This document shows, piece by piece, positions 9,242-27,307 of a DNA stretch of 48,036 bases; within the stretch, counting starts at the first letter, position 1; every line of letters starts with the position of its first letter. The position numbers and the translations under genes were made by a program. The notes beneath the pieces are model-generated. The model had not been told where the DNA came from. It saw nothing but the letters and a program-made list of their open reading frames with translations, and did no database searches. This DNA is from Bacteroidales bacterium (GTDB lineage: Bacteria; Bacteroidota; Bacteroidia; Bacteroidales; WCHB1-69), in NCBI GenBank assembly GCA_017613015.1, contig JAGAEQ010000074.1, positions 1 to 48,036 of the forward strand, in the 5' to 3' direction.

Positions 9242-11560
9242 CTAATTGAAAATCAATATGTCTGTATATTTTAAAATTTTTACATTGTCATAATAGAACC
9301 GCAGAATCTCCTGGCAGTCGTACCCGAGCCGCACCATTTGTATGGCGCCCTCCTGGCTCAGCCCCACGCCATGCCCGTAGCCCTTGCCGCTCAAGCAGAC
9401 ACTGTCTTTTCCGGCTGTCGGACGCACCGAGAAATAGGTGGAGCGAAGATGGAAATGCGTGCGCAGGTTCTTGGTGGGAATGGTGTCCCTGTCCACCACC
9501 CAATACGCCATCCGCTGGGGCTGGGAAAGGTTCTGTATCTGCTGCTGCTTCTCCGGCGAGCGGTAGGACGCGCCGTAATTGGACACAAAATACGCCGTCC
9601 ACTGGTCCGCCGGGATTTTTTTCTCCCAAGTGTAGTTGCGGGCGCTCATGCTGAACGAATCCACCTTGGCCTGCAAATACGGCACCGAACGCTGCCAAAT
9701 GTCCTTCGCGTCCACCGTCATGCCGCCGCTGTTGGAATGGTAGGCGGGCGTTATCAGACGGTTCAGGCTGTCCACAATCACGTCCCCATAGGTTTCGAAA
9801 GTGCCGCGCAGAATGTCCGCCTCTGTGCATTTGCCTTTGTAGGACTGACAATGCACGGCGTCGCACATGTTGTAGCCCTCCTTCAAATGGCGGTTGAGGT
9901 TGGCCAGGCAATAGGTGCGTGCCGCAATTGCCTGTATCTTAAAGAACTCCACATCGTTGGAACTACCGAAAACCTCGGACTGCACCACACCGGCCACGTA
10001 TTTTTCCAAATCCACACGGTTGATTAACAGCATGCCGTGCTGCACGCTGGCGGAAAGCCTTTCCTCGTAGGTGCGCTTTTTCCCCGCCTGGGGGGACTGC
10101 AAGGAGAACACATTGCTGTAGCGGGTGCCGATAAAATCCACCTGGGCGTAGGCACCTAACAGCTCTATGCCCTTCTCAACCCGTATCTGCCCGTCGTACA
10201 CGCTGATAGTGACCGATTCCCCCGCTTTCAAATCCTCCTCGAAAATGCGGGCGTTGTCACACAGAAGCATGTACTGTCCCGCCATTACGTGGAAAGCCAC
10301 CGACTTGACATTAAACTCCGACAGCACCCTCACCTTGATGTTGATGGCCTGCGCCGCCCCCATCGTCACTAACAGGAGCGCCAGAAACAGCATGCGTTTT
10401 CCGAAAGCTTTCCGGCCCGAAGGGCAGGCTTTTTCCGCCTTCTTGTCTTCCGCTTTTTTCTCCAGTGCCGTCCGCATGGACGCGGCAATGGCTTCGGAGG
10501 CTTTTCCGTCGCCTAAACGGCGGCGCACCTCCCGGTAATCCGCCTGCATGCGGGAAAGCGGCTCCCCCTCCTGCAAAAGCGGTTGCAGCTCCCTGTCGAT
10601 GGCGTCCGCGTTCATTTCCCGTTGAATCAGCTCCGTCACCACTTTTTTCCCGGCAATCAGATTGACTAACGAAATGTAGGATATGCCTTTAACCAAATGC
10701 TTGGCTATCTGGTAGGAAAGGCCGTTCGCTCTGTAGCAGACGACCTGTGGCACACCGAACAGGGCGGTCTCTAAGGTGGCGGTCCCGGAAGTGACCAAAG
10801 CGGCCGCGCTTTGCGAAAGCAAATCATAGGTGCGTCCGTACACCACTCTCACGTTTTCAGAAAGATACGGAAGGTACAAGGCTTCGTGGTGCTTCACCCC
10901 GGCAATGACAAAGCGGTATTCGGGATGCCTTTCCGCCACTTCGGCCATAACCGGCAGCATGCGGCGGATTTCCTGCGTCCGGCTGCCCGGAAGAAGTGCA
11001 ATAATGCGTTGTCCGTCACAGAGTTCCATTTCCCGAAAATGAGCATCGGGAGTGTAGCGGGAAAGCTCGTCTAACAACGGATGCCCCAAATAATGCGCCC
11101 GCATGCCGTGACGCGCGTAAAAATCCTCTTCAAAAGGCAGAATCACATACATTTCATCCACGTACTTGCGAATCTGGCGCAAACGGGACTTCTTCCACGC
11201 CCACACCTGGGGCGAAATATAGTAAAACACTGGTATCCCCTTACGGTACAGGCGTTTGGCCACCCTGAGGTTAAAACCGGGGTAGTCCACCAGAATCACC
11301 GCATCCGGACGGTAGGCGACAATGTCCCTGATACAGAAATCCAAGAGGGAGAAAATGACCCCCAAATGGGTGACCACTTCCACAAAACCCATGAAAGACA
11401 AATCTTTGTAATGTTTCACCACTTCGGCACCGGCGGCTTGCAAGCGTTCGCCTCCCCAGGCACGGAAACAGGCTTCCGCATCCTGGCGGCGCAAAGCCTT
11501 CGCCAGGTTAGAGGCATGCAAATCCCCCGACGCTTCCCCCGAAATGATGTAGTATTTCAT
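9242..11560 (-). CDS. lpxB: LpxB (lipid-A-disaccharide synthase) fused in frame to a SpoIID/LytB-domain protein
   Basis: One uninterrupted 772-residue frame. Residues 1-~367 are a complete LpxB with SGEASGDLHASNL, VDYPGFNLRVAK, YYISPQVWAWKK, LGHPLLDE, LLPGSRTQEIRR, VTSGTATLETALFG and ISLVNLIAGK. LpxB joins UDP-diacylglucosamine to lipid X at the inner face of the inner membrane. Residues 368-389 are a charged linker. Residues 390-405 (MLFLALLLVTMGAAQA) look exactly like a signal peptide, and 406-772 form a SpoIID/LytB domain with RVDLEKYVAGVVQSEVFG, IQAIAARTYCLANL and KGYGHGVGLSQEGAIQM. SpoIID-type domains act on peptidoglycan outside the inner membrane. ATG 11560 is chosen because it gives the exact LpxB N terminus and overlaps the tgt stop by 4 bases (ATGA). 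Internal initiation at ATG 10393 could also make the SpoIID part alone. Confidence 0.9.
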   Translation of the reverse strand: MKYYIISGEASGDLHASNLAKALRRQDAEACFRAWGGERLQAAGAEVVKHYKDLSFMGFVEVVTHLGVIFSLLDFCIRDIVAYRPDAVILVDYPGFNLRVAKRLYRKGIPVFYYISPQVWAWKKSRLRQIRKYVDEMYVILPFEEDFYARHGMRAHYLGHPLLDELSRYTPDAHFREMELCDGQRIIALLPGSRTQEIRRMLPVMAEVAERHPEYRFVIAGVKHHEALYLPYLSENVRVVYGRTYDLLSQSAAALVTSGTATLETALFGVPQVVCYRANGLSYQIAKHLVKGISYISLVNLIAGKKVVTELIQREMNADAIDRELQPLLQEGEPLSRMQADYREVRRRLGDGKASEAIAASMRTALEKKAEDKKAEKACPSGRKAFGKRMLFLALLLVTMGAAQAINIKVRVLSEFNVKSVAFHVMAGQYMLLCDNARIFEEDLKAGESVTISVYDGQIRVEKGIELLGAYAQVDFIGTRYSNVFSLQSPQAGKKRTYEERLSASVQHGMLLINRVDLEKYVAGVVQSEVFGSSNDVEFFKIQAIAARTYCLANLNRHLKEGYNMCDAVHCQSYKGKCTEADILRGTFETYGDVIVDSLNRLITPAYHSNSGGMTVDAKDIWQRSVPYLQAKVDSFSMSARNYTWEKKIPADQWTAYFVSNYGASYRSPEKQQQIQNLSQPQRMAYWVVDRDTIPTKNLRTHFHLRSTYFSVRPTAGKDSVCLSGKGYGHGVGLSQEGAIQMVRLGYDCQEILRFYYDNVKILKYTDILIFN

Positions 11561-12687
11561 ATTCTCCTTGAAAGTATGGGTGCGTACGTGTTTTTCCAAT
11601 CCGTGAAATCCCCTTCCTGGATATGCTTCCGCGCTTCGCGCACCAAGGAAAGGTAAAAATGCAGGTTGTGCAGGCTGCCCACCATGCTGGCCAGCATCTC
11701 CCCGTTCATGAACAGATGCCGCAGGTAGGCTTTGGTGTACACCCTGTCCGCGAACAAATCGCTCTCCTCGTCCAAGGGGGAGAAATCGAACTTCCACTTC
11801 TCGTTGCGCAGGTTGATGATGCCCTCCTTGGTGAACAGCGTGGCATTACGTCCGTTGCGGGTCGGCATGACGCAATCGAACATGTCCACACCCAAGGCAA
11901 TGCATTCCAGAATGTTGGCCGGGGTGCCCACGCCCATCAGGTAACGGGGTTTCTGCCAGGGAAGGATGTCGCAGCAGATTTTGGTCATGGCGTACATCTC
12001 TTCGGTGGGTTCGCCCACAGAAACGCCGCCTATGGCATTGCCGTCACAATCCATGGAAGCGATGAATTCGGCGGAGCGCACGCGCAAATCCTTGAACACG
12101 CTGCCCTGAATGATGGGGAAAAAGGACTGGTAGCGCCCGTAGTGCGGGGAGGTCTGCTTCCACTGCGCCACGCCGCGCTCCAACCAGCGGTGCGTCCGTT
12201 CCATGGACTTTTCCGCATACTCGTGCGTGGTGGGATAGGGCGTGCATTCGTCCAAGGCCATCATGATGTCCGAACCGATAATCCGCTGCACATCCACCAC
12301 CGATTCCGGGGTGAACTTGTGCACGGAACCGTCGATGTGGGAGGAAAAAGTGACCCCGCTCTCCGTGATTTTGCGCCGGTGGCTCAGGGAAAACACCTGA
12401 AATCCGCCGCTGTCGGTCAAAATGGGCTTGTCCCATGCGTTGAAACGGTGCAGCCCGCCGGCGGCCTCCAGCACTTCCATGCCGGGACGCAGGTAAAGGT
12501 GGTAGGTGTTGCCCAAAATAATCTGGGCGCGAATCTCCTCCTCCAAGTCCTTCAAATGCACTCCCTTGACCGCGCCCACCGTGCCCACCGGCATGAAAAT
12601 CGGTGTCTCAATGACACCGGAGTCGGTGACAAGACAGCCGCTTCTCGCCTTGGAGACGGCATCTGTCGCTTCTATGGTAAACTGCAT
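11557..12687 (-). CDS. tgt: tRNA-guanine(34) transglycosylase
   Basis: A 376-residue enzyme that swaps guanine-34 for preQ1 in tRNAs with GUN anticodons, the key step in queuosine synthesis. It shows IFMPVGTVGAVKGV, the substrate-binding ILTDSGGFQVFSL, GNAIGGVSVGEPTEEM, and the nucleophile region DMFDCVMPTRNGRNATLFTK. The usual zinc site, an ECDCYTC-like CxCxxC followed by a histidine, is altered: at that place the protein reads EESDLFADRVYTKAYLRHL, with no cysteines, while the later HNL histidine remains. I believe related Bacteroidota enzymes share this, but could not check. The stop overlaps the lpxB start. A good TAATTTTG promoter box lies about 26 bases upstream. Confidence 0.96.
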   Translation of the reverse strand: MQFTIEATDAVSKARSGCLVTDSGVIETPIFMPVGTVGAVKGVHLKDLEEEIRAQIILGNTYHLYLRPGMEVLEAAGGLHRFNAWDKPILTDSGGFQVFSLSHRRKITESGVTFSSHIDGSVHKFTPESVVDVQRIIGSDIMMALDECTPYPTTHEYAEKSMERTHRWLERGVAQWKQTSPHYGRYQSFFPIIQGSVFKDLRVRSAEFIASMDCDGNAIGGVSVGEPTEEMYAMTKICCDILPWQKPRYLMGVGTPANILECIALGVDMFDCVMPTRNGRNATLFTKEGIINLRNEKWKFDFSPLDEESDLFADRVYTKAYLRHLFMNGEMLASMVGSLHNLHFYLSLVREARKHIQEGDFTDWKNTYAPILSRRI

Positions 12688-15814: not shown

Positions 15815-18800
15815 TTACCGGACGACGTTCATCTTCCGGACCACACGCTGTCCCTGGTATTCCACACTGTAGTAGTAGATACCAGAAGCGTAGTCGGACA
15901 CATTGAGTTCAATGTAACGCTCGCCGGTCTCGCCGTTCAACTGCTCACGATGCAGCAGCTGTCCGTTGGCGCTCATAACGCTGAACACCATCACATCCTC
16001 CTGCGGAATGCTGTACGGGATGCGGGTGACGCTGGAAGCCGGGTTAGGAATGTTCTGTCCCAGGCTCCAGTTGGCGTCGGCGGCATAACGGATGCCCGTG
16101 CTGTCGCGGAAGCAGTCGAAGGTGGCGCTGATGGTGTCGTTGTGCTGGATGCTGTCGCCGTTGTAAGCCGTCACATAAGCTTTCAGGCTGTATTGTCCAG
16201 TGTAGTCCGGCACCTTGTAGGTCATGGCGAAAGTGTAGTCCTTGGTCTCGTTGGTGCCCAGCACGCTGAGGTTCTCAGTAATGCTCTCGACCACGGTCTT
16301 GGACGCATCCTGCACATCCACGTGAATCACGATGTTGGAGGCATCCGCGTTACCGATGTTGGCAATCCGGACGGTCGGGCTGAGTTTCATCTTGCCGGTG
16401 GCCGGAGAAGTCGTGGTGACCGCAAGGACTTGGATGTCGATGGTGTCAGGAACATCCACCATACCAATGGCGTTCAGCATGTTGTTGCTGGTGTCCGCAT
16501 CGCAATCCATGTCCACCGTAACCTCCAGGAAGTAGAAGGGCTGGTCTTTGGAGGCCTCAGGAACCACATACGGCTTGGTGAAGGCGTGGGTCATAGAGTC
16601 GCCCTGTCCCAGAGCCTGGCGCACGGTGTCCACCACGACGATTTCGTCGTTCAGCTTCAAGCCGATGCGGAAGGAATTGACCGTCATGTTACTGAGGTTT
16701 TGCACCACCGCGCTCAACCGTATCTGGTCACCCGGGGTGTCCAAACGCTGGTCATCCGTTCCGATGAGGCGGTTCAAGGACACATCCTGATGCACATAAT
16801 AGGTGGAGTCACACACAGTGTCGTTGGCGGTGTTGTCGTCCTGAGACTGCATCCTCATGGCGATGTAATAATTGCCGTTGGCACGCATGTCGATGTTGCC
16901 GAAAGTAATCGTATCCGTTTCGTAGCCGCCCATCACTTTGGTAAACACATAGCTGAGCTGCTGCGTGGTGGCGCCCGTCACTTCAGCGACAATGGTGTCT
17001 TTCGTCAGCGGCGTGGTCTGCATGGTAAGGTTGCTGATAACCGCCTTCAAAGGAACCTGATCGTTTTCGCAAGCGGAGAAGGCACTGTAATCAATCGGAA
17101 GCATCCGGATGGACACATCCTGATCGGCCATGATGCGGACACGGTCCAAAGCCTGGTCGGAACCGCCGTAGCTGATCGCCTGAAAGACGATGCTCAAGCA
17201 AGGCTCGTTGACGAAACGGCTCAAATCAATGTCATACTGTTTCCAACCCGTGAAGGTGTCTGCAACCATCACACGGCCAACCTCCGTGTAAGAGGCGCCG
17301 GCATTGGTGGTCACCAGCACGTGCATCAGGTCACGCTTGGTATTGTCGGAAGAATGGGCATACCAGAAGCTCAACTTCGGATTCAGGCAACCCTGAATGT
17401 TCACCGCGTTGAACACCGCTTCGGAAGCGGCACCCACTTGACCGGCACCGGCAAACACCAGACTTCCGGTACCGAAGACCGAAGCGGGAGTGACCGAAGT
17501 GGCCGGTTCCACGCTCCAGGACACGTTTCCGGAACGAATCACATTCACAAACTCCTTCGGCGTAGTGCTGAAATCCACATCGTAAGGAAGTTCCACACGA
17601 TTGGCCTTGTAGCTCAACATCAGCCTGTCGTCAAACGCCAGCACGTCGGAGGTGTCGGTCAGTTGGAGCTGCAAGTTGTAGGTTCCGTTGGCAATGGTCG
17701 GGATCGTGGTCAGGTACAAGGTGTCCACCTGGGTCGGACGAAGCGAACCGCTAGTGATGGTCGTGTCGAAGTGGAAGGAAATGGCACCGCGCACATCTAA
17801 GTCGATGCGCAAGGCGGAAGTGTCGAAACTCGCGGTCTTACGACCCATGTTCCGAATGACGATTTCCACCGGCGTGCTGTCGGTGTAGCACACCACATCC
17901 GCAATGGCCACCGGTTTCAGGAAGGCCACCGCCTGCAAGTTCACACCGTCCCACATCTCAGCGCCGTAGCAACCCATGGCAGAGGAATTCGACCTCGGAT
18001 TGCCGTTCAAATCGGTGGGAACTTCAGGAATGCTCGGGCAGGCGAACGCAGTGTAGTCGTTCAATTCCAAACTGTTGGCCACACGTATGAAGGAAGGCTT
18101 CGCAGAAATGGAATTGCTGTCCTGCGTGGTCACCGCCTGGAAATCCGGAATGGAAGTCTTGGTCACCGAACCCAAACGCACATAACCCACATTGGCAGAG
18201 GTTTCGGAATACAGGTTGTTGTATTCGCGCAAGCCATAGGCCAAGGTATAGTAATTGGTGGTGGTGTTGCTTCCATACAAATAGATAGGATAACTGGTGG
18301 TTCCGCTGGAAATGACCATGTTGCGGGTGAAGTTCGTCTGATACGTGGTGTTCGTTCCCGCATACCAGTACACGCCATAGGAAGTGCTGTTATCCGTCTG
18401 CGAATAAATGCTGTTGTAATGGATATCCATACGACTGTAAGAGTTTTGCAGGTACATGCCGTACTTTGTGTTCGTTCCGAAAAGACGAATCTCGTTGTTG
18501 GCAATCAGCGCACGCCCATTGGAATAACTTGGGTTATTCTGGTAGTAGGACATATACATGCCGTAACCCGTGCTCTTGTTGTTCACATAAATACGGTTGC
18601 ACATCACCTTATCGTAATTGGAATAGTAATAGGAATACACTCCGTAATACATGCTCGTTCCCTCGCGGCTGCGAATGGTGTTGTGGCAAAGCGAACGGAT
18701 GGAGGAATTGTAATAATTGTACATACCATAGTAGTAAGCCTCCGTCATCACATTGCTGTCGATATACATGGACGCCGATGTCATGTAAGAAGTGTTTCCG

Positions 18801-21800
18801 CACATGTAATACAGGTACATGTTGTGGTATCCTCCGGTAATGTTGTTGGCGACGATACGGACATCGACCGGATAGGTGGTGGAGCCGCTAGTACCATCGT
18901 AACGGAAAGCGCTATAAGTGCTGGAGGTCGCTGTCTTGTTGGCGTAGATGTTGCACTCGCGGATAATCACATCGGAACAGCCGGCGGCCATGCGGATACC
19001 CATCAGACCGTTGGTGGTGTTACCGAAGGTCAGGTTGTGGAAACGCACATGGGACACGCCGTAAAGCACCGCGCCCGCCGCTTTGGAACCGCCGTCAAGA
19101 ACAACCGTTCCCCTTTCGGGAAGGAAGGTGACCGTACGGGAAGCGCTCGCGCCGGGGATTTCGCCAAGCAGGTTCAAGGTGCCGTAGGTTCCCTGACGGA
19201 AACGTATCACGACAGGCCCTGAAATTCCGCAGGTATACAAAGCGGCGGTCAGTTCATCCAGATCTGCGAAGTCCGGATTGCTTCCGCCCACCGTATAGGT
19301 ACCGGCGGCCAACACACTGCTACAGGCATACTCTTCATACGAAATGGTGTCGTTGAAATGATCGCTGTCGGTGCCGCCGTTCGGCTGGCTCACCCAGGCT
19401 TTCAGGCGGTTAATCTTGTCAATGAGCGGCGTGATGTTGCCCAAAGACACTTTCTCGCTTTCACCCAAGGCTAACTTGCCCGTCCAATTGACCGGGGTCT
19501 GTGCCACACCATTGAATTCCCAGTTGATGACAGCGGTGCGCAGAGTATCCAAACCTTTGTTGCCCAAAATCACACTCACCGGCGAAGAGGCAGTGGTCAT
19601 CTTCACATCAGCGAAGTCCGAAAGCATGGCATCCAATCGGATGGTCAGCTCATCCTCGTAGGCGCCCATGAGGGTAACCTCTCCACGGGCATCATTGTTG
19701 ATGTCCACCTGCACATCTTTCAGACGCGGCATCACGAGATCGCCCTTGCTCTTGATGCTCAGGTCATGCGCAAGGTTCGGGAAGGTCGGCATCGTACTGA
19801 CGCTATGGGCATCCATGCCGCCGTATGTACGCAAATCGGCCAGGTTCTTGCAATCAAAACCTTGCACCTTGGCGAGCACGCTTCCGCCATTGTTGTAATA
19901 GTTGTTGTAATCCAGAACAAATCCGCTCATGTTCGTCGTGTAATCGTTGATGAAAGCCTGCTGGGCGTTCGAAACCACGAAAACATTGCCTTTCAACTCC
20001 GAGACATAGGGGCTGCTGGAATTGCCTCTGAACGCGGCTCCCATACCACCCGTCATATACACGGTGTTGTGGTAGAAATTCATCCGGTTGTTCTGGGTAT
20101 ACACAGCATAGTAAGCGGAAGTGTTGGAGGTCGACAGATAGCACTTTATCGTGTTGTTCGCCACCATGGCAGGATACGTCACATTGTAATAGTTCAAATA
20201 GTACAAGTACATGGGATATGTCTGGTAGGCGATGCTGGTTCCGCCCCGTGTGGCGTCTATACGGTTGCCGATAATGTCATCGGCAATACAATAGTACATA
20301 TTAATACCATAATACAGGTTGGTCCCGTTCTTGGTACGGACTCGGATATTGTTGTGCGAGAAGCTCTTGAACTGCGTGTAATAGCAGTAGGTCCCATACA
20401 CCAATTGGCCGATCATCTCGTTGCTGTCCACCACCACATTCGTGTTCATCGCGCTGGAACTGGAACCATACAGGTAGATGCCGTAATAGGCGCCCATCAT
20501 GCGGTTGCCGACAATGCGGATGTTGGACACAACGCCACCAGAAGGATTATAAACATGATACGTTGTGTACGATTTCGTCGTATCAAAGTAGGTGTTGTTG
20601 TGTTGAATTGTGATGTCACCACATCCGTTGGTCAGGTAGATGATGTACCTTGAAGAGGTGGTGGACGTGTTCACCAAGGTCAGGTTTTCAATCGTGATGT
20701 TCTTGTTGGTCGAACCAATCATCACCACCTGGGTGCCCGAACAGGAAATGGTCGCACTGTCGCGGTGGCCTGCCAACGAAGTCAGCGTCAGGTGGTAGTC
20801 ACCCATGGCGGTGGCAATGTCGGCCAAGGTGATGGCAGAAGTAGCCGTGCTGGTGTACACCCCACTTTCAAACGCCAAGGTCACATCTCCCGCCACGCCG
20901 CAAGAGCCGTTCGAACCCTTCATTTCGTTGAACAGCGCGCTCAAGTTGGCAAAAGTATAGTCCGCATTGGGCGAAGATCCGATCACATAGGTTCCGGAAA
21001 CCACTTTGCTGCAGACCTTTCCGCTTACGCTGGTTGTGTCGTTGCTTTTGTTGCCGTCACCCGTCATATCCACCCAAGCCACAATGGTGTGGGTGCCTTC
21101 CAACAGGGAGAAGTAGCCCATGAGCACCGTATCCGACTGGCCGTAAGCCAACGGTCTGGCCGGTTTGTACTGCACTGCAGGCTGCATCACATTGTCCACC
21201 ATCATCGTAATGACAGCGGAGTCCATGTCCTTGAGGCCCTTGTTCTGGATAACCACTGAAATCGGGCCGGAGTTTCCGGCGGTCAGCCGGGTAAGTCCGT
21301 CAATGGCAATCAGGGACGCATCGTTGGAATCCGGAGCAGTGCTGTAGCAACCGATTGTGGTCTGTTCGAAACGGGCCGCCCCGTCAATGTCGGAATCCAC
21401 TCCATAGATGGCAGGAGCCCAGAAGGACTTGGGATTGTTCAGACGTAAATTCGTATTGTTGTTCCACACCGGCTTGACGGAAACCGAATGCTGGTTATTC
21501 AGCACATTGGCCGATTTGATGGCCGCCAAGGTGTTCTTGGCCGATCCGAGGTAAGCCAGGTAGGATCCGCCGCTGACATAGTTGTTATAATCCATCAGAT
21601 GGTAGGCCGGCGTAATGTAAGTGGCCGTCGCAATGTACAAAGGATAACCCGAGTTGTTGCCATTGACCAGCATGTTGTTATAGATACGCGGCGCGTAGGC
21701 AGTCTGGGTGTTGTACAGGTACATGCCGTAGCTCGTAATGGTCGAATTGGTGAACACCGAGTTGTGGGCGAGTGTGATGGGGCCGTAAGGATAGTACAGG

Positions 21801-24421
21801 TAGACACCGTACTTGTTGCTTCCGCCATTTGTAATCACCACCTCGTTGTTCGTCACCATCATGGTGTCTGTCTTACTGTTGTAGTTCTGGTAGTACAGGT
21901 ACATGCCGTAGGCCGTTGACGCATTGTTGAGGTAGATGCGGTTGCCATCGATATTTTCCCAACGGCAGTAGTAGCTATACAGGCCATAATAGGTGGAAGC
22001 TCCCGAATAATTGGTTATCGTATTATGCGAGAAGCTCTTATACAGCCCGTAATAGTAGGCGTACACGGCATTGTAATACGAGTTGCGCAGAATGTTGCTG
22101 TCGATGGTCACACCGACACCCGAATCCAGCTCATTGGCGTTACTGCGGACATAGTACAGGTACATGCCATAGTAACCTCCGTTAATCACGTTGTTGATGA
22201 AACGGACATCGTCCAGCCTTTCACCGCTGTTGCTGACACCGGCATAGCTCACCGCCCTGTAGGAGGGATGGGAAGCTATGGGCGAGGCAATGTAGCAGTT
22301 GTGGAACAGCACATTCTTCACCGTGCCTTCCAGTTCCACACCAATCACCTGTCCGTTAAACGCAAGTTCTTCAAAAATCAGATGCGAGGAACGGCTCACT
22401 TTCACCGAACTCATGTCGTAGAAAATAACACTATCGCGACGGTTGGCTAAGGAAGTGAATTTCACCGTATTGGTTTCACTGCAACCCGGAATGTCCCCGA
22501 CAACGGAGAATCCGCTGTATACTCCGGTAGCGATGCGCAGTTCCACAGGACCACCCACACCGCAAGCCGACAGCGCGGCGATGGCGTCTTCAATGTTGGC
22601 AAAGCGGGCATTGGCCCCACCGACAACATACACGCCCTTCATCACGGAATCGCAACCGAACATGGTCATCCGCATCGTATCGTTCCGCCAGTCCGCATCC
22701 GCACCGCCATTGGGCGAAGCCACCCAGGCCTTGAACTCATTGATACCAGACACCGGGTAAAGGCTTCCTATGGTCACCGTATCCTCCTCATAGGGTTTCA
22801 GCAGACCTGTCCAAGAATAGGTCACAGGAGTGGAAGTGTTCACTTGGAAAGCGACCTTGGCGGAAGTGATGTTGCTCGTACCCACGTTCGATATCACCAC
22901 TTTCACCGGAACCTGACTCATCGTCGCCTCGGACGAAGCGGGGCTGATAATTTCTTTCAACGCCAGATCCAAAGCGTGGAACTCCACCTGCCAGGCGCCC
23001 GCCACGGCAACCGCCGTATCACGCAGCACGCCGCGGATGTCGGTCGGAACCGAAGCAATGACGGGGAAGGTGACACCCACCGTATCCATGAGGTGCAAAT
23101 CCTCTTCCGTATTGACATAATTCGGAGAGACAAAACGGGAAGCGACATCCGAAGAAACGGTATTTCTCCATTCTGACATGCTCGTAATCGCTCTGCCCGC
23201 ATAGCCCACATTGGGATTGGACGCATAGGCGTTCCAATAGCAGTTGTTGTTGATATCCACATTGTTGGCCAGATAACTTGTATTCGGGATATACACCGGA
23301 TAGCTGTTGATGGAAGGATTGGCCATGTCAAAGATGTTGTTTTTGATCTCTATGTCGTACACATTGCTCGAAGCGAAATACACACCATACTGAGACGGAG
23401 CGATGTCCTTCAGACGGAAGGTGTTGTGGTATACCAAAGCCGTGGAGGCATTGGCAAGGTAAAGGCCGTAGCCTCCGGAGGTGCTGCAAGTGGCCCGGTA
23501 TTCGTTGTTCACAATGCGGCGGTAGCCGTTGGTCACGTCTCCGAAATAGGAGGTGTAGAAGCCCATGTAGAGGGAAGCCACATCAAAGATGTTGCCTTCC
23601 ACGTTCGCATTGGAGTAGTAGGCATATATTGCATACATGTTGGCTAAGGTGAAGTTGCCCCGACGCTGTTTCACCATGTTGTGGTGCACAAACACGGAGT
23701 CCGCATAGTACATGTACACCGCACTGTAGTCGACGCTGTCGATGAGGTTGTTGTCGATTTCGATACGGGCGATACGCGCCGTTGCATCGGAACCGTACAC
23801 ATACACGCCGAGAGAGCCGCCTTCCATCAGGTTGTGGTGGAGACGCACATCCTTCACACCGTTTCCATACAGGTACACCGCACCATGGGCCGTACCCGTA
23901 ACAGCTTGGCTAAAGGATTTGGGCACCCACAGATGGCAGTTGTGGATGTTGATATGCGAACTGTTGCCCGTAACCATGATGCCACGGCTGTAGGCATAGC
24001 TGTGGTAGTTCGGGTTCTGGCCCGTCAGGCCCAGATCACAAATCTCCACGTAGGAAGCACCATTGATCATAATCGCCGCCAGATTGCTCATGCAATCGTC
24101 CTCACGAACCAGCAGTACACTGCTGCTGTCATGCAGGTAGGAAGTGATGGTCAGCGTGTTGGCCGCGCTCATACCGTTAATCCACCCGATAGTGGAATTC
24201 TGGTAATAGGTGCCCGGCAGGTAGGCAAGGGTCACAGGACCGCCCAAACCGCAGAAGCCCAAAATCCGGAGCGCTTCATCCAGGGACTTGAAATAACCCG
24301 TGTCACCGATGGTAAAGGTGCCGGTCAAGGCCGCAGCGCAGGAGAAATGGCTGGCGCTGATTGTATCGTCAGCGGACTCGGAGTCAATCATGTTGTTGCC
24401 GAGGGACACCACATAGGCCAC
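15815..24421 (-). CDS. Giant beta-helix surface protein, C-terminal part with type A T9SS sorting domain (second fragment of an interrupted gene)
   Basis: A 2,868-codon open frame in the same frame as the 958-codon fragment upstream. It has no signal peptide and only a GTG at 24421 as a start; the true reading continues from upstream through a TAA at 24433-24431. It contains units 2-5 of the repeat architecture. Each unit has a CARDB-like domain, a segment like GTYTVGGSNPDFADLDEL, then a right-handed beta-helix with many tyrosine-rich coils (GMYLYY, VYAYYY, GVYSYYYS). After unit 5 come further CARDB-like domains and a MAM/jelly-roll-like domain. The end (~last 90 residues) is a type A sorting domain: LGQNIPNPASSVTRIPYSIP, then ASGIYYYSVEYQGQRVVRKM. 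Without the N-terminal fragment it could not be exported. The binding target is unknown; polysaccharide or surface adhesion is plausible. Confidence 0.88.
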   Translation of the reverse strand: MAYVVSLGNNMIDSESADDTISASHFSCAAALTGTFTIGDTGYFKSLDEALRILGFCGLGGPVTLAYLPGTYYQNSTIGWINGMSAANTLTITSYLHDSSSVLLVREDDCMSNLAAIMINGASYVEICDLGLTGQNPNYHSYAYSRGIMVTGNSSHINIHNCHLWVPKSFSQAVTGTAHGAVYLYGNGVKDVRLHHNLMEGGSLGVYVYGSDATARIARIEIDNNLIDSVDYSAVYMYYADSVFVHHNMVKQRRGNFTLANMYAIYAYYSNANVEGNIFDVASLYMGFYTSYFGDVTNGYRRIVNNEYRATCSTSGGYGLYLANASTALVYHNTFRLKDIAPSQYGVYFASSNVYDIEIKNNIFDMANPSINSYPVYIPNTSYLANNVDINNNCYWNAYASNPNVGYAGRAITSMSEWRNTVSSDVASRFVSPNYVNTEEDLHLMDTVGVTFPVIASVPTDIRGVLRDTAVAVAGAWQVEFHALDLALKEIISPASSEATMSQVPVKVVISNVGTSNITSAKVAFQVNTSTPVTYSWTGLLKPYEEDTVTIGSLYPVSGINEFKAWVASPNGGADADWRNDTMRMTMFGCDSVMKGVYVVGGANARFANIEDAIAALSACGVGGPVELRIATGVYSGFSVVGDIPGCSETNTVKFTSLANRRDSVIFYDMSSVKVSRSSHLIFEELAFNGQVIGVELEGTVKNVLFHNCYIASPIASHPSYRAVSYAGVSNSGERLDDVRFINNVINGGYYGMYLYYVRSNANELDSGVGVTIDSNILRNSYYNAVYAYYYGLYKSFSHNTITNYSGASTYYGLYSYYCRWENIDGNRIYLNNASTAYGMYLYYQNYNSKTDTMMVTNNEVVITNGGSNKYGVYLYYPYGPITLAHNSVFTNSTITSYGMYLYNTQTAYAPRIYNNMLVNGNNSGYPLYIATATYITPAYHLMDYNNYVSGGSYLAYLGSAKNTLAAIKSANVLNNQHSVSVKPVWNNNTNLRLNNPKSFWAPAIYGVDSDIDGAARFEQTTIGCYSTAPDSNDASLIAIDGLTRLTAGNSGPISVVIQNKGLKDMDSAVITMMVDNVMQPAVQYKPARPLAYGQSDTVLMGYFSLLEGTHTIVAWVDMTGDGNKSNDTTSVSGKVCSKVVSGTYVIGSSPNADYTFANLSALFNEMKGSNGSCGVAGDVTLAFESGVYTSTATSAITLADIATAMGDYHLTLTSLAGHRDSATISCSGTQVVMIGSTNKNITIENLTLVNTSTTSSRYIIYLTNGCGDITIQHNNTYFDTTKSYTTYHVYNPSGGVVSNIRIVGNRMMGAYYGIYLYGSSSSAMNTNVVVDSNEMIGQLVYGTYCYYTQFKSFSHNNIRVRTKNGTNLYYGINMYYCIADDIIGNRIDATRGGTSIAYQTYPMYLYYLNYYNVTYPAMVANNTIKCYLSTSNTSAYYAVYTQNNRMNFYHNTVYMTGGMGAAFRGNSSSPYVSELKGNVFVVSNAQQAFINDYTTNMSGFVLDYNNYYNNGGSVLAKVQGFDCKNLADLRTYGGMDAHSVSTMPTFPNLAHDLSIKSKGDLVMPRLKDVQVDINNDARGEVTLMGAYEDELTIRLDAMLSDFADVKMTTASSPVSVILGNKGLDTLRTAVINWEFNGVAQTPVNWTGKLALGESEKVSLGNITPLIDKINRLKAWVSQPNGGTDSDHFNDTISYEEYACSSVLAAGTYTVGGSNPDFADLDELTAALYTCGISGPVVIRFRQGTYGTLNLLGEIPGASASRTVTFLPERGTVVLDGGSKAAGAVLYGVSHVRFHNLTFGNTTNGLMGIRMAAGCSDVIIRECNIYANKTATSSTYSAFRYDGTSGSTTYPVDVRIVANNITGGYHNMYLYYMCGNTSYMTSASMYIDSNVMTEAYYYGMYNYYNSSIRSLCHNTIRSREGTSMYYGVYSYYYSNYDKVMCNRIYVNNKSTGYGMYMSYYQNNPSYSNGRALIANNEIRLFGTNTKYGMYLQNSYSRMDIHYNSIYSQTDNSTSYGVYWYAGTNTTYQTNFTRNMVISSGTTSYPIYLYGSNTTTNYYTLAYGLREYNNLYSETSANVGYVRLGSVTKTSIPDFQAVTTQDSNSISAKPSFIRVANSLELNDYTAFACPSIPEVPTDLNGNPRSNSSAMGCYGAEMWDGVNLQAVAFLKPVAIADVVCYTDSTPVEIVIRNMGRKTASFDTSALRIDLDVRGAISFHFDTTITSGSLRPTQVDTLYLTTIPTIANGTYNLQLQLTDTSDVLAFDDRLMLSYKANRVELPYDVDFSTTPKEFVNVIRSGNVSWSVEPATSVTPASVFGTGSLVFAGAGQVGAASEAVFNAVNIQGCLNPKLSFWYAHSSDNTKRDLMHVLVTTNAGASYTEVGRVMVADTFTGWKQYDIDLSRFVNEPCLSIVFQAISYGGSDQALDRVRIMADQDVSIRMLPIDYSAFSACENDQVPLKAVISNLTMQTTPLTKDTIVAEVTGATTQQLSYVFTKVMGGYETDTITFGNIDMRANGNYYIAMRMQSQDDNTANDTVCDSTYYVHQDVSLNRLIGTDDQRLDTPGDQIRLSAVVQNLSNMTVNSFRIGLKLNDEIVVVDTVRQALGQGDSMTHAFTKPYVVPEASKDQPFYFLEVTVDMDCDADTSNNMLNAIGMVDVPDTIDIQVLAVTTTSPATGKMKLSPTVRIANIGNADASNIVIHVDVQDASKTVVESITENLSVLGTNETKDYTFAMTYKVPDYTGQYSLKAYVTAYNGDSIQHNDTISATFDCFRDSTGIRYAADANWSLGQNIPNPASSVTRIPYSIPQEDVMVFSVMSANGQLLHREQLNGETGERYIELNVSDYASGIYYYSVEYQGQRVVRKMNVVR

Positions 24422-26281
24422 GATGTTGTTTTAGCCTCCCAAAGCGACGAAGCGACCAAGTATAACTGTATCTGTCTCACCAATTTGCAAATTTCCAGTC
24501 CATTTTACGTCAGGTTGACGGATACCGTTCACCTCCCAACCGATGGTCACTGAGCGAAGCGGAAGGATACCGCCGTTTTGCAGCACCACCGAAGGAGTCA
24601 GCGTGTCACCGCCTTGTCCGCTTTCCGGCCAGCCCAGCAAAGCCATCAGCGCGGCATTTGCGGAATCTGCCGAGGAAGTGTAGCATCCGCGGCCCGTCAC
24701 CACCAGACGCATGGCACCGTCCACATCCGAAGTCACACCCGGATAGGCAGGGCATTTCAACTGGTTGTAGGAAGCCATCTGCAAGTTCCGGATGACGGCA
24801 GACGTATCCGTAAATGCAGGATAGATGTTCGTCTCATGAAGCGCCGAAGGCACCGCAGCCGTAAAGGCCGCAGGGCTTGAAATCACCGAGCCCACATTGG
24901 CCATGTTGTTCTTGGAAGCCCAGTTGTTGTAGTCAATGTCGAAGCGGTTCACGTATTGCGAATAACCCACATAGAGCGGATAGGCCGTTCCCGGATACAC
25001 GGAATCAATTACAATGTTGTTGTTACGGATAACGCCCCAATAAGTGTTAGAGGTATTATACAAATAGTATCCGTAAAAAGTGCTGTTACTACTGCCTGTC
25101 AGGTAAGCGCTGTTGTTAATTACCTGCAAACCATAGGGATAATAGTCTTGGTACGCATAGCTGGCACCCGTTGCGTTTTTCAGGACAACCTCATTGTTGC
25201 AGACCAGCATGGTGCTGTCGCAATAATAGAAACGGAAGCCGTACTTGTACTGGGCCGCCCCGAAACCGTGGATGCGGTTGGCGTCGACGCGGGTGTTATG
25301 CGAGTAGTAGAAGGTGGCGCCGTAAAAATACGTGTAGACGTTTTCCCCTTCCACCAACGTGTTGTGCAGGAAATCCATCTCCGTGTAGTAGACATAGAGA
25401 GGATAATAGTAGCTCCGCTCAATCAGGTTGCTGTCAAACAGGATGTGGGTGTTGGGATCCGTCGCCGACATGCCGTTCATGTAGATTCCGTAGCTACCGT
25501 ACTCTATATGGTTGCCGATGAAGCGGACATCGTTCACGCTCGTTTTGGCGGAATAGATGACCGAATGCTCCGCCCCCGTGCTGGAGGAAATGTATCCCCT
25601 CAGGTGGCAATGGCGGAATTCCACATCATCGCACCTGGAGGTGAAATTCACCACATAGCTGGCGGCATTTGCTGCGGAAAAAGTCAGGTTTTCAAACCGC
25701 AGGTGGTTCGCATTGGACAAGGTCACCACCACGCCTTTCGCCGGGAGGAAGACCACAGAGTCGGCATGTCCCGCGATAGAGGAAATCGTCAGGCGGTACT
25801 TGCCCATCTGCGTGCCAAAGTTGTAAAAATCCAAACTTCTGTTGTACTCTCCGGAAGCCAGCTGGAACTCCACATCGCCACCGGCGCCGCAAGTGCTCAG
25901 AATGAAAAGGGCTTCTTCCAAGGTGGCGAAATCCTTTCCCGCACCCACGGTGTACACACCGTGCATGGAGCTGTCACATCCGTAGACAATCCATTCCATG
26001 GTGTCGTCTTTCCACAGGGGGTCCGTCACATTGTTCGGCATGTAGACCCAGGCCTTCAAGGTGTCGTAACGGTCCAGCCGCTGAGTATAGGTTCCGATGT
26101 TCACGGTTTCCGTGAAATCGCAAGGCAGATTGCCGGTCCAGGCCTTAGGCGTTTGGATCACGCCATTGACACTCCATCCGATGTTCACCGACCTCAGACG
26201 GGCCAGACCTATGTTGCGGATAGAGACCAGCACCGGTTGCGTGCCGGCCACCGTGCTCTCCAGAGGAGAAATGTAATCGTC
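17945..26281 (-). repeat. Five tandem 1.64-1.69 kb coding units (CARDB-like + beta-helix)
   Basis: Unit starts, taken at the CARDB-like domain, lie near 26281, 24640, 22965, 21320 and 19635, with the next CARDB-like domain near 17945. The spacing is very regular. Each unit has the order: CARDB-like (…KAWV…), a GxYxVG…F…L…CG..G segment, and a parallel beta-helix containing a recognisable coil such as NGGYYGMYLYY or GGYHNMYLYY. Short exact DNA repeats occur between units, for example a 17-mer at 21714-21730 and 21894-21910. Confidence 0.8.
24431..24433 (-). other. In-frame TAA splitting the giant gene
   Basis: On the minus strand the codons run GGA GGC TAA AAC AAC ATC GTG GCC TAT GTG. The stop sits inside the CARDB-like domain of unit 2. 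Aligned with unit 4 (LLEGTHTIVAWV), the sequence ALGG*NNIVAYV matches without any gap, so a base substitution rather than a frameshift explains it. Confidence 0.9.
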
Positions 26282-27307
26282 CATCGCAACGGAGTTGGAA
26301 TCGCTGACGCCGCCCTTGTATTTCAAGGAGAAGCCACCGGCATCACGGGAGGAGTTGCCTGCCGAATCCCTACCTATAATATAATAATTGATCACGGATT
26401 CGTATTCATGTTGGGGAATCTCCGCTGTCCACAGGGAGTCGCCGCCGTCCCGGTCCGTCATGCGGACAGAGTCGGTGGTGGTCACGTTGTTCAGGGTAGC
26501 GGTCCAGCACAGCCACGGGCGCACAATGGGGGCCTCTGTCCGTGTGGCCACTTTCGCGTTAATGGTAAAGGGGCCCGTGTAATAGAGGACCTCCGCATAA
26601 GAGGAAGTGATGTCCACCACCGGAGGGGCGATAGCCACCTGGGATGCCATCAGCTGGAAATCATCGACGAACCAACCGTCCGCCGCATAGGATCCGAAGA
26701 AATTGCCCTTGCGTATGACAAATTTGAAACGGATTTTCGTATAGCTTGCATAATTGCTCAAATCAAAGGACTCCTCCTTCCACCATCCGTTCTGTGCGAG
26801 CGCATAGGTGTCCGTCGGCATCCATTCTGTGTAGGAAGTGTGGTTAAACAGTTTTTTTTCACGGTAAGTCAAAGACTTGCCCTTATAAGCGTCCACAGGG
26901 AGCTCTTTCCAGCGGTAATAGCCGCCCAAGCCCTGCTCCTGGTACATCACCTGACATATATCACTTTGCAGAATCTTACAAATATGACTGAATTTCAGAA
27001 CGACATACTTGTAGTTGGTACAATCGTAAAACGGGGATACCAACTCCACGGAGTCACCCGTGTTGTAGGGCGTGTGCCCACGCATGGAATAATGGCCGCT
27101 TGTCGCCACTTGGGTGCTTGACTCCCATGTGGGCAAAGCAGTCGTGGAAACCGGCTGCACACTCCAGCCTGACGGCAACGACGCCTTGAAGGACTCGTTG
27201 GCCAGGTAGGTGGCTTGCGCATGAAGTCCGCGCGGAGCGGAAATCAGCAACAACGAAAGCAATAGGGACGCTTTCGCCATCCATTTGTAAAATTGCCTCA
27301 TAAACAT
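24431..27307 (-). CDS. Giant beta-helix surface protein, N-terminal part with signal peptide (first fragment of an interrupted gene)
   Basis: A 958-codon frame. The signal peptide spans about residues 1-31 and ends GLHAQA; ATG 27301 (third codon) is an equally good start. Residues ~33-222 resemble a MAM/cleaved-adhesin jelly-roll domain (LANESFKASLPSGWSV; ending DGWFVDDFQLMAS). A small Ig-like region follows (~225-330), then the first CARDB-like domain (~343-440), the GVYTVGAGKDFATLEEALFI segment, and the first beta-helix (~490-830) with tyrosine-rich coils such as YPLYVYY and YGYYLYN. The second CARDB-like domain is cut by the TAA at 24431. The fragment lacks a T9SS sorting domain, which lies at the end of the downstream part. 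With that part the protein would be about 3,830 residues. Confidence 0.88.
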   Translation of the reverse strand: MFMRQFYKWMAKASLLLSLLLISAPRGLHAQATYLANESFKASLPSGWSVQPVSTTALPTWESSTQVATSGHYSMRGHTPYNTGDSVELVSPFYDCTNYKYVVLKFSHICKILQSDICQVMYQEQGLGGYYRWKELPVDAYKGKSLTYREKKLFNHTSYTEWMPTDTYALAQNGWWKEESFDLSNYASYTKIRFKFVIRKGNFFGSYAADGWFVDDFQLMASQVAIAPPVVDITSSYAEVLYYTGPFTINAKVATRTEAPIVRPWLCWTATLNNVTTTDSVRMTDRDGGDSLWTAEIPQHEYESVINYYIIGRDSAGNSSRDAGGFSLKYKGGVSDSNSVAMDDYISPLESTVAGTQPVLVSIRNIGLARLRSVNIGWSVNGVIQTPKAWTGNLPCDFTETVNIGTYTQRLDRYDTLKAWVYMPNNVTDPLWKDDTMEWIVYGCDSSMHGVYTVGAGKDFATLEEALFILSTCGAGGDVEFQLASGEYNRSLDFYNFGTQMGKYRLTISSIAGHADSVVFLPAKGVVVTLSNANHLRFENLTFSAANAASYVVNFTSRCDDVEFRHCHLRGYISSSTGAEHSVIYSAKTSVNDVRFIGNHIEYGSYGIYMNGMSATDPNTHILFDSNLIERSYYYPLYVYYTEMDFLHNTLVEGENVYTYFYGATFYYSHNTRVDANRIHGFGAAQYKYGFRFYYCDSTMLVCNNEVVLKNATGASYAYQDYYPYGLQVINNSAYLTGSSNSTFYGYYLYNTSNTYWGVIRNNNIVIDSVYPGTAYPLYVGYSQYVNRFDIDYNNWASKNNMANVGSVISSPAAFTAAVPSALHETNIYPAFTDTSAVIRNLQMASYNQLKCPAYPGVTSDVDGAMRLVVTGRGCYTSSADSANAALMALLGWPESGQGGDTLTPSVVLQNGGILPLRSVTIGWEVNGIRQPDVKWTGNLQIGETDTVILGRFVALGG

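Follow-up and report, generated by a model that had tools for sequence, protein, structure and literature searches.

In the 48,036-nt stretch of DNA analysed here (the window), which belongs to the draft genome of a gut-type Bacteroidales bacterium, a gene that encodes a very large exported protein is intact except for a single in-frame TAA. Comparison with homologues supports a single-codon nonsense substitution, and on balance we favour the view that this one-base change in a tyrosine codon lies in the assembled consensus rather than in the organism. The gene and its parts are as follows.

15815..27307, minus strand: gene-length frame of a large multi-unit exported protein with one interruption (11,493 bp; 3,829 sense codons)
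24431..27307, minus strand: upstream part, 958 codons from ATG, covering a signal peptide (judged by eye) and unit 1, and reaching into unit 2
24431..24433, minus strand: lone in-frame TAA, aligned with a tyrosine codon in the closest homologue and in a same-genome paralogue
15815..24430, minus strand: downstream part, 2,871 sense codons plus the terminal TAA, without a signal peptide
24338..24592, minus strand: CARDB-type Ig-like domain of unit 2, cut by the stop (structure model and PDB matches)
15830..16048, minus strand: T9SS C-terminal sorting domain, Por_Secre_tail, PF18962 (Pfam profile match)

The 3,829 sense codons, the internal TAA (24431-24433) and the terminal TAA make up the whole of the frame 15815-27307. 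A preliminary description of this DNA reported frames of 958 and 2,868 codons in one register with one TAA between them, and the ORF coordinates agree with this: the downstream ORF (15815..24421, minus strand) comprises 2868 aa when counted from a GTG and 2871 codons when counted stop to stop. The upstream part opens with a classical signal peptide, MFMRQFYKWMAKASLLLSLLLISAPRGLHAQA, recognized by eye and not by a predictor. The downstream part lacks a signal peptide, as had been described, and ends in a Por_Secre_tail domain that scores 29.2 bits against a curated Pfam cut-off of 27 (37.2 bits in the genome search), a sorting signal of T9SS-exported proteins. In the given sequence, signal peptide and sorting domain hence fall on opposite sides of the TAA, the division that the preliminary description had drawn. 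A CARDB match is also present in the downstream part. Codon statistics are of the coding type on either side of the TAA (GC3 of 0.68 upstream and 0.69-0.73 downstream), and no further stop or frameshift was found in the 15815-27307 frame besides the internal TAA; the earlier impression that the remaining codons show no decay was therefore well founded. A frameshift or indel at the site was considered and rejected: the reading frame does not change across the TAA, and no gap is needed there to align the close homologues.

To find homologues, we used the frame around the TAA as query, with the stop read as X, against the genomes of relatives and the genome from which the window comes. Three homologues are each a single open frame, of 3,981-4,046 codons: that of the closest relative, which belongs to the same genus (G002:C52, 56% identity), a paralogue in the window's own genome (G000:C2, 49% identity) and a third one (G001:C114, 48% identity). 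In G002:C52 and G000:C2 the codon aligned with the TAA encodes tyrosine and is one substitution away, and in G001:C114 it is a sense codon; a comparison of relatives at this codon, which the preliminary description had proposed, thus returns a sense codon in the close homologues. In the paralogue, the codon before the site and the next three codons are identical to those of the window gene. Elsewhere in the family the aligned residue is Thr, Arg, Asp, Asn, Ser and others, the variability expected of a loop. A stop occurs in none of the ~150 other family matches listed from relatives and the same genome, which itself carries a family of about five such genes. Gene neighbours differ between the window and G002 over the stretch examined, and we therefore speak of close homology only, orthology being unproven. 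A plasmid search and a viral-contig search gave no matches.

These comparisons show what is seen in a nonsense-interrupted gene, namely continuous homologues and a sense codon one substitution off. Judged by homology, the two ORFs are one gene, and 2,871 open codons right after a stop are no chance run. Since the homologues are whole and none has a stop, the site is not a place where two genes normally meet, nor is it one of conserved recoding.

We also built a rough structure model of the region around the stop, with a mean pLDDT of 63 (moderate confidence) and values of ~80 near the site. The stop is residue 302 of the model, and an Ig-like domain at model residues about 249-333 matches solved CARDB domains in the PDB (3idu, 2kl6; TMt 0.72-0.74). 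This agrees with the earlier placement of the stop inside a CARDB-like domain of unit 2. Within that domain, the model would put the stop where a predicted strand begins, at its first or second residue. The preliminary description had also stated that the sequence around the site aligns without gaps to units 1, 3, 4 and 5. By eye, this holds for units 3 and 4 only; units 1 and 5 have one extra residue in the loop.

Could the gene function in two pieces? The downstream part might restart just past the TAA, at a GTG or an ATG, with the two products acting together. Two in-frame start candidates are available, a GTG at 24419-24421 (4 codons on) and an ATG at 24389-24391 (14 codons on), so the GTG is not the sole possible start, contrary to what had been claimed; in addition, a GGAGG lies directly ahead of the TAA. 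However, 13 nt separate this motif from the GTG, and Bacteroidetes generally lack SD sequences (PMC3155529). Moreover, every close homologue is a single frame, and a downstream product that lacks a signal peptide could not reach the T9SS. We regard a working split gene as extremely improbable. For the same reason, the single frames of the close homologues, we rejected an arrangement of two normal genes: none of these homologues encodes two proteins with a proper start past the site, the case that the preliminary description had named as one that would overturn its reading.

A second way to keep the gene active would be to decode the TAA, at least in part, by programmed or suppressor-mediated readthrough, giving the full-length protein. 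The long intact frame downstream, sorting domain included, is compatible with this idea, and there are reports of conserved in-frame stops in bacterial genes (PMC7918605). Those stops resemble the one studied here in that each lies in frame within a long gene and is flanked by coding sequence, but they are common to several species at the same position, whereas the window TAA is found in no relative. Indeed, none of the aligned homologues shows a stop at this position, where the residue is variable, so nothing is conserved. RF1 and RF2 are both intact in the genome, and about 80% of sampled genes terminate in TAA or TAG, with TAA the commonest terminator and TAG the second; a reassigned code was rejected on these grounds. 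The RNA near the TAA folds as shuffled sequences do (z-scores of -0.54, 0.12 and 0.45), giving no sign of a stimulatory structure. Among the 33 tRNAs found in this 80%-complete genome, from which tRNA-Tyr is missing, none is a suppressor and none (0/33) has a UUA anticodon. Together these data make readthrough very unlikely, and this part of the list of causes in the preliminary description loses ground, while two others that it listed are sustained, nonsense substitution by the homologues and assembly error by a second stop, in gyrA.

That second stop comes from the same assembly, a fragmented, metagenome-type draft of 87 contigs that is 79.6% complete. In keeping with this completeness, no rpoB, no rpoC and no tRNA for Tyr, Trp or Ile (GAU) turned up in it (G000). 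We scanned 734 kb, about 43% of the genome, chosen by stretches, for genes split by one in-frame stop. Two internal stops were verified by homologues: the one in the window gene and one in gyrA. The gyrA gene lies on the minus strand of contig 26 (L133), where an in-frame TAG at 11973-11975 splits it into 479 and 392 codons (stop to stop). At this site, G001, G002 and G003, of the same genus, have a lysine codon. A TAG in gyrA of G003 was considered as a possible shared recoded stop and rejected, as it sits just upstream of the start codon. An apparent split gene in another stretch (L054) proved to be two separate genes, and a frameshift scan of the same 734 kb gave no convincing case.

A pair of stops in one genome could be read in favour of suppression: one ochre suppressor tRNA could read both TAA and TAG, and the absence of tRNA-Tyr from the incomplete tRNA set leaves room for a mutated copy. 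Against this, only two internal stops occur in the 734 kb, although tolerated stops would accumulate. An ochre-type suppressor that restores both proteins to full length, possibly a changed tRNA-Tyr absent from the assembly, is in our estimate a highly unlikely explanation.

GyrA is essential in bacteria. In this assembly its gene is single-copy, the sole other match being a ParC-like gene that is 27% identical. Because gyrA is both single-copy and essential, we take its TAG, most simply, to be a consensus error. Similar damage is present in the drafts of relatives: gyrA of G009 (L148) has an internal TAA at residue 607, and rpoC is broken by changes of frame in G002 (G002:C62) and G039 (G039:C28). 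The control essential gene rpoB was clean. These broken gyrA and rpoC genes, in the window's own assembly and in those of relatives, indicate that base miscalls are a likely background. Taking both stops in the scanned sequence as errors gives a substitution error rate of ~8e-5, near Q41, which is plausible for a draft; the density is approximate, since the sequence was sampled by stretches and the scan misses short fragments.

Because gyrA, an essential gene, is also broken by a single stop in this assembly, an assembly or consensus error gains weight for the window gene as well. Low-coverage assembly is known to produce spurious internal stops (PMC11017572). The spurious pseudogenes described there resemble the window gene in having a single internal stop, intact flanks and whole homologues, in a draft where an essential gene is broken likewise; the difference is that here we infer the miscall at this base. 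An error at this particular base nonetheless seems to us the most likely explanation, rated above a genuine recent nonsense allele. The TAA would then stem from a base miscall or from a read mixture in the fragmented draft. Living cells would in that case make a single protein of about 3,830 residues from this gene. This very large beta-helix/CARDB protein would be exported by the T9SS, with its signal peptide directing it to the periplasm and its C-terminal sorting domain taking it across the outer membrane.

Several points count against a consensus error. The 300 bp around the TAA occur only once in the genome, which leaves no other copy to be mixed in. Collapse of repeats was rejected on this ground and because the repeats within the gene have diverged from one another. 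The density in the sample is just two stops in 734 kb, and real populations commonly carry nonsense alleles of surface proteins that are not essential. A further caveat is that the gyrA argument assumes that gyrA is intolerant of a break at that codon.

The main competitor is a true TAA in the strain, either a recent nonsense mutation or a strain polymorphism, with loss of the surface protein. We hold this to be a serious possibility, if a less probable one than a consensus error. The lesion consists of one substitution with perfect flanks and no other damage over 3,829 codons; if constraint has been lost, the absence of further lesions caps neutral divergence since then at roughly 0.2%, assuming an indel rate of 0.1 per substitution. 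The gene is probably dispensable, being one of about five family members in the genome, several of which may cover for it. Its 958-residue fragment would reach the periplasm without a sorting signal, and T9SS cargo lacking the end of the C-terminal signal is known to build up there (PMC4804311). The likeness to a recent nonsense pseudogene of a T9SS surface protein is thus close, with signal peptide and sorting domain split by one stop and no other decay, but here the TAA is read from the assembled consensus alone. In addition, this assembly very probably contains errors, given the equivalent lesion in gyrA, a gene for which a true null would be implausible. Nor has the allele been seen elsewhere: no further genome of this species turned up when public genomes and viral contigs were scanned, collections from which records very near the window's own were possibly excluded.

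If the allele is true, it amounts to the ordinary loss of one surface protein from a multi-member family. Most likely, then, the gene is read in no new way, and the stop is either an error in the sequence or a recent knock-out of an ordinary sort. A single in-frame stop in a draft needs both homologue and essential-gene controls before it is interpreted as recoding or gene loss.

Elsewhere in the window (9242-11797), a single 851-codon open frame encodes both LpxB and a SpoIID-domain protein, without an intervening stop. Three genomes of the same genus have LpxB and SpoIID as separate genes; in G002, LpxB is followed by an exported-type gene, and the end of a CHU_C-like gene lies ahead of SpoIID. 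Within the LpxB-SpoIID frame there is an ATG that opens a signal-peptide-like sequence, which suggests that SpoIID may still be made alone.
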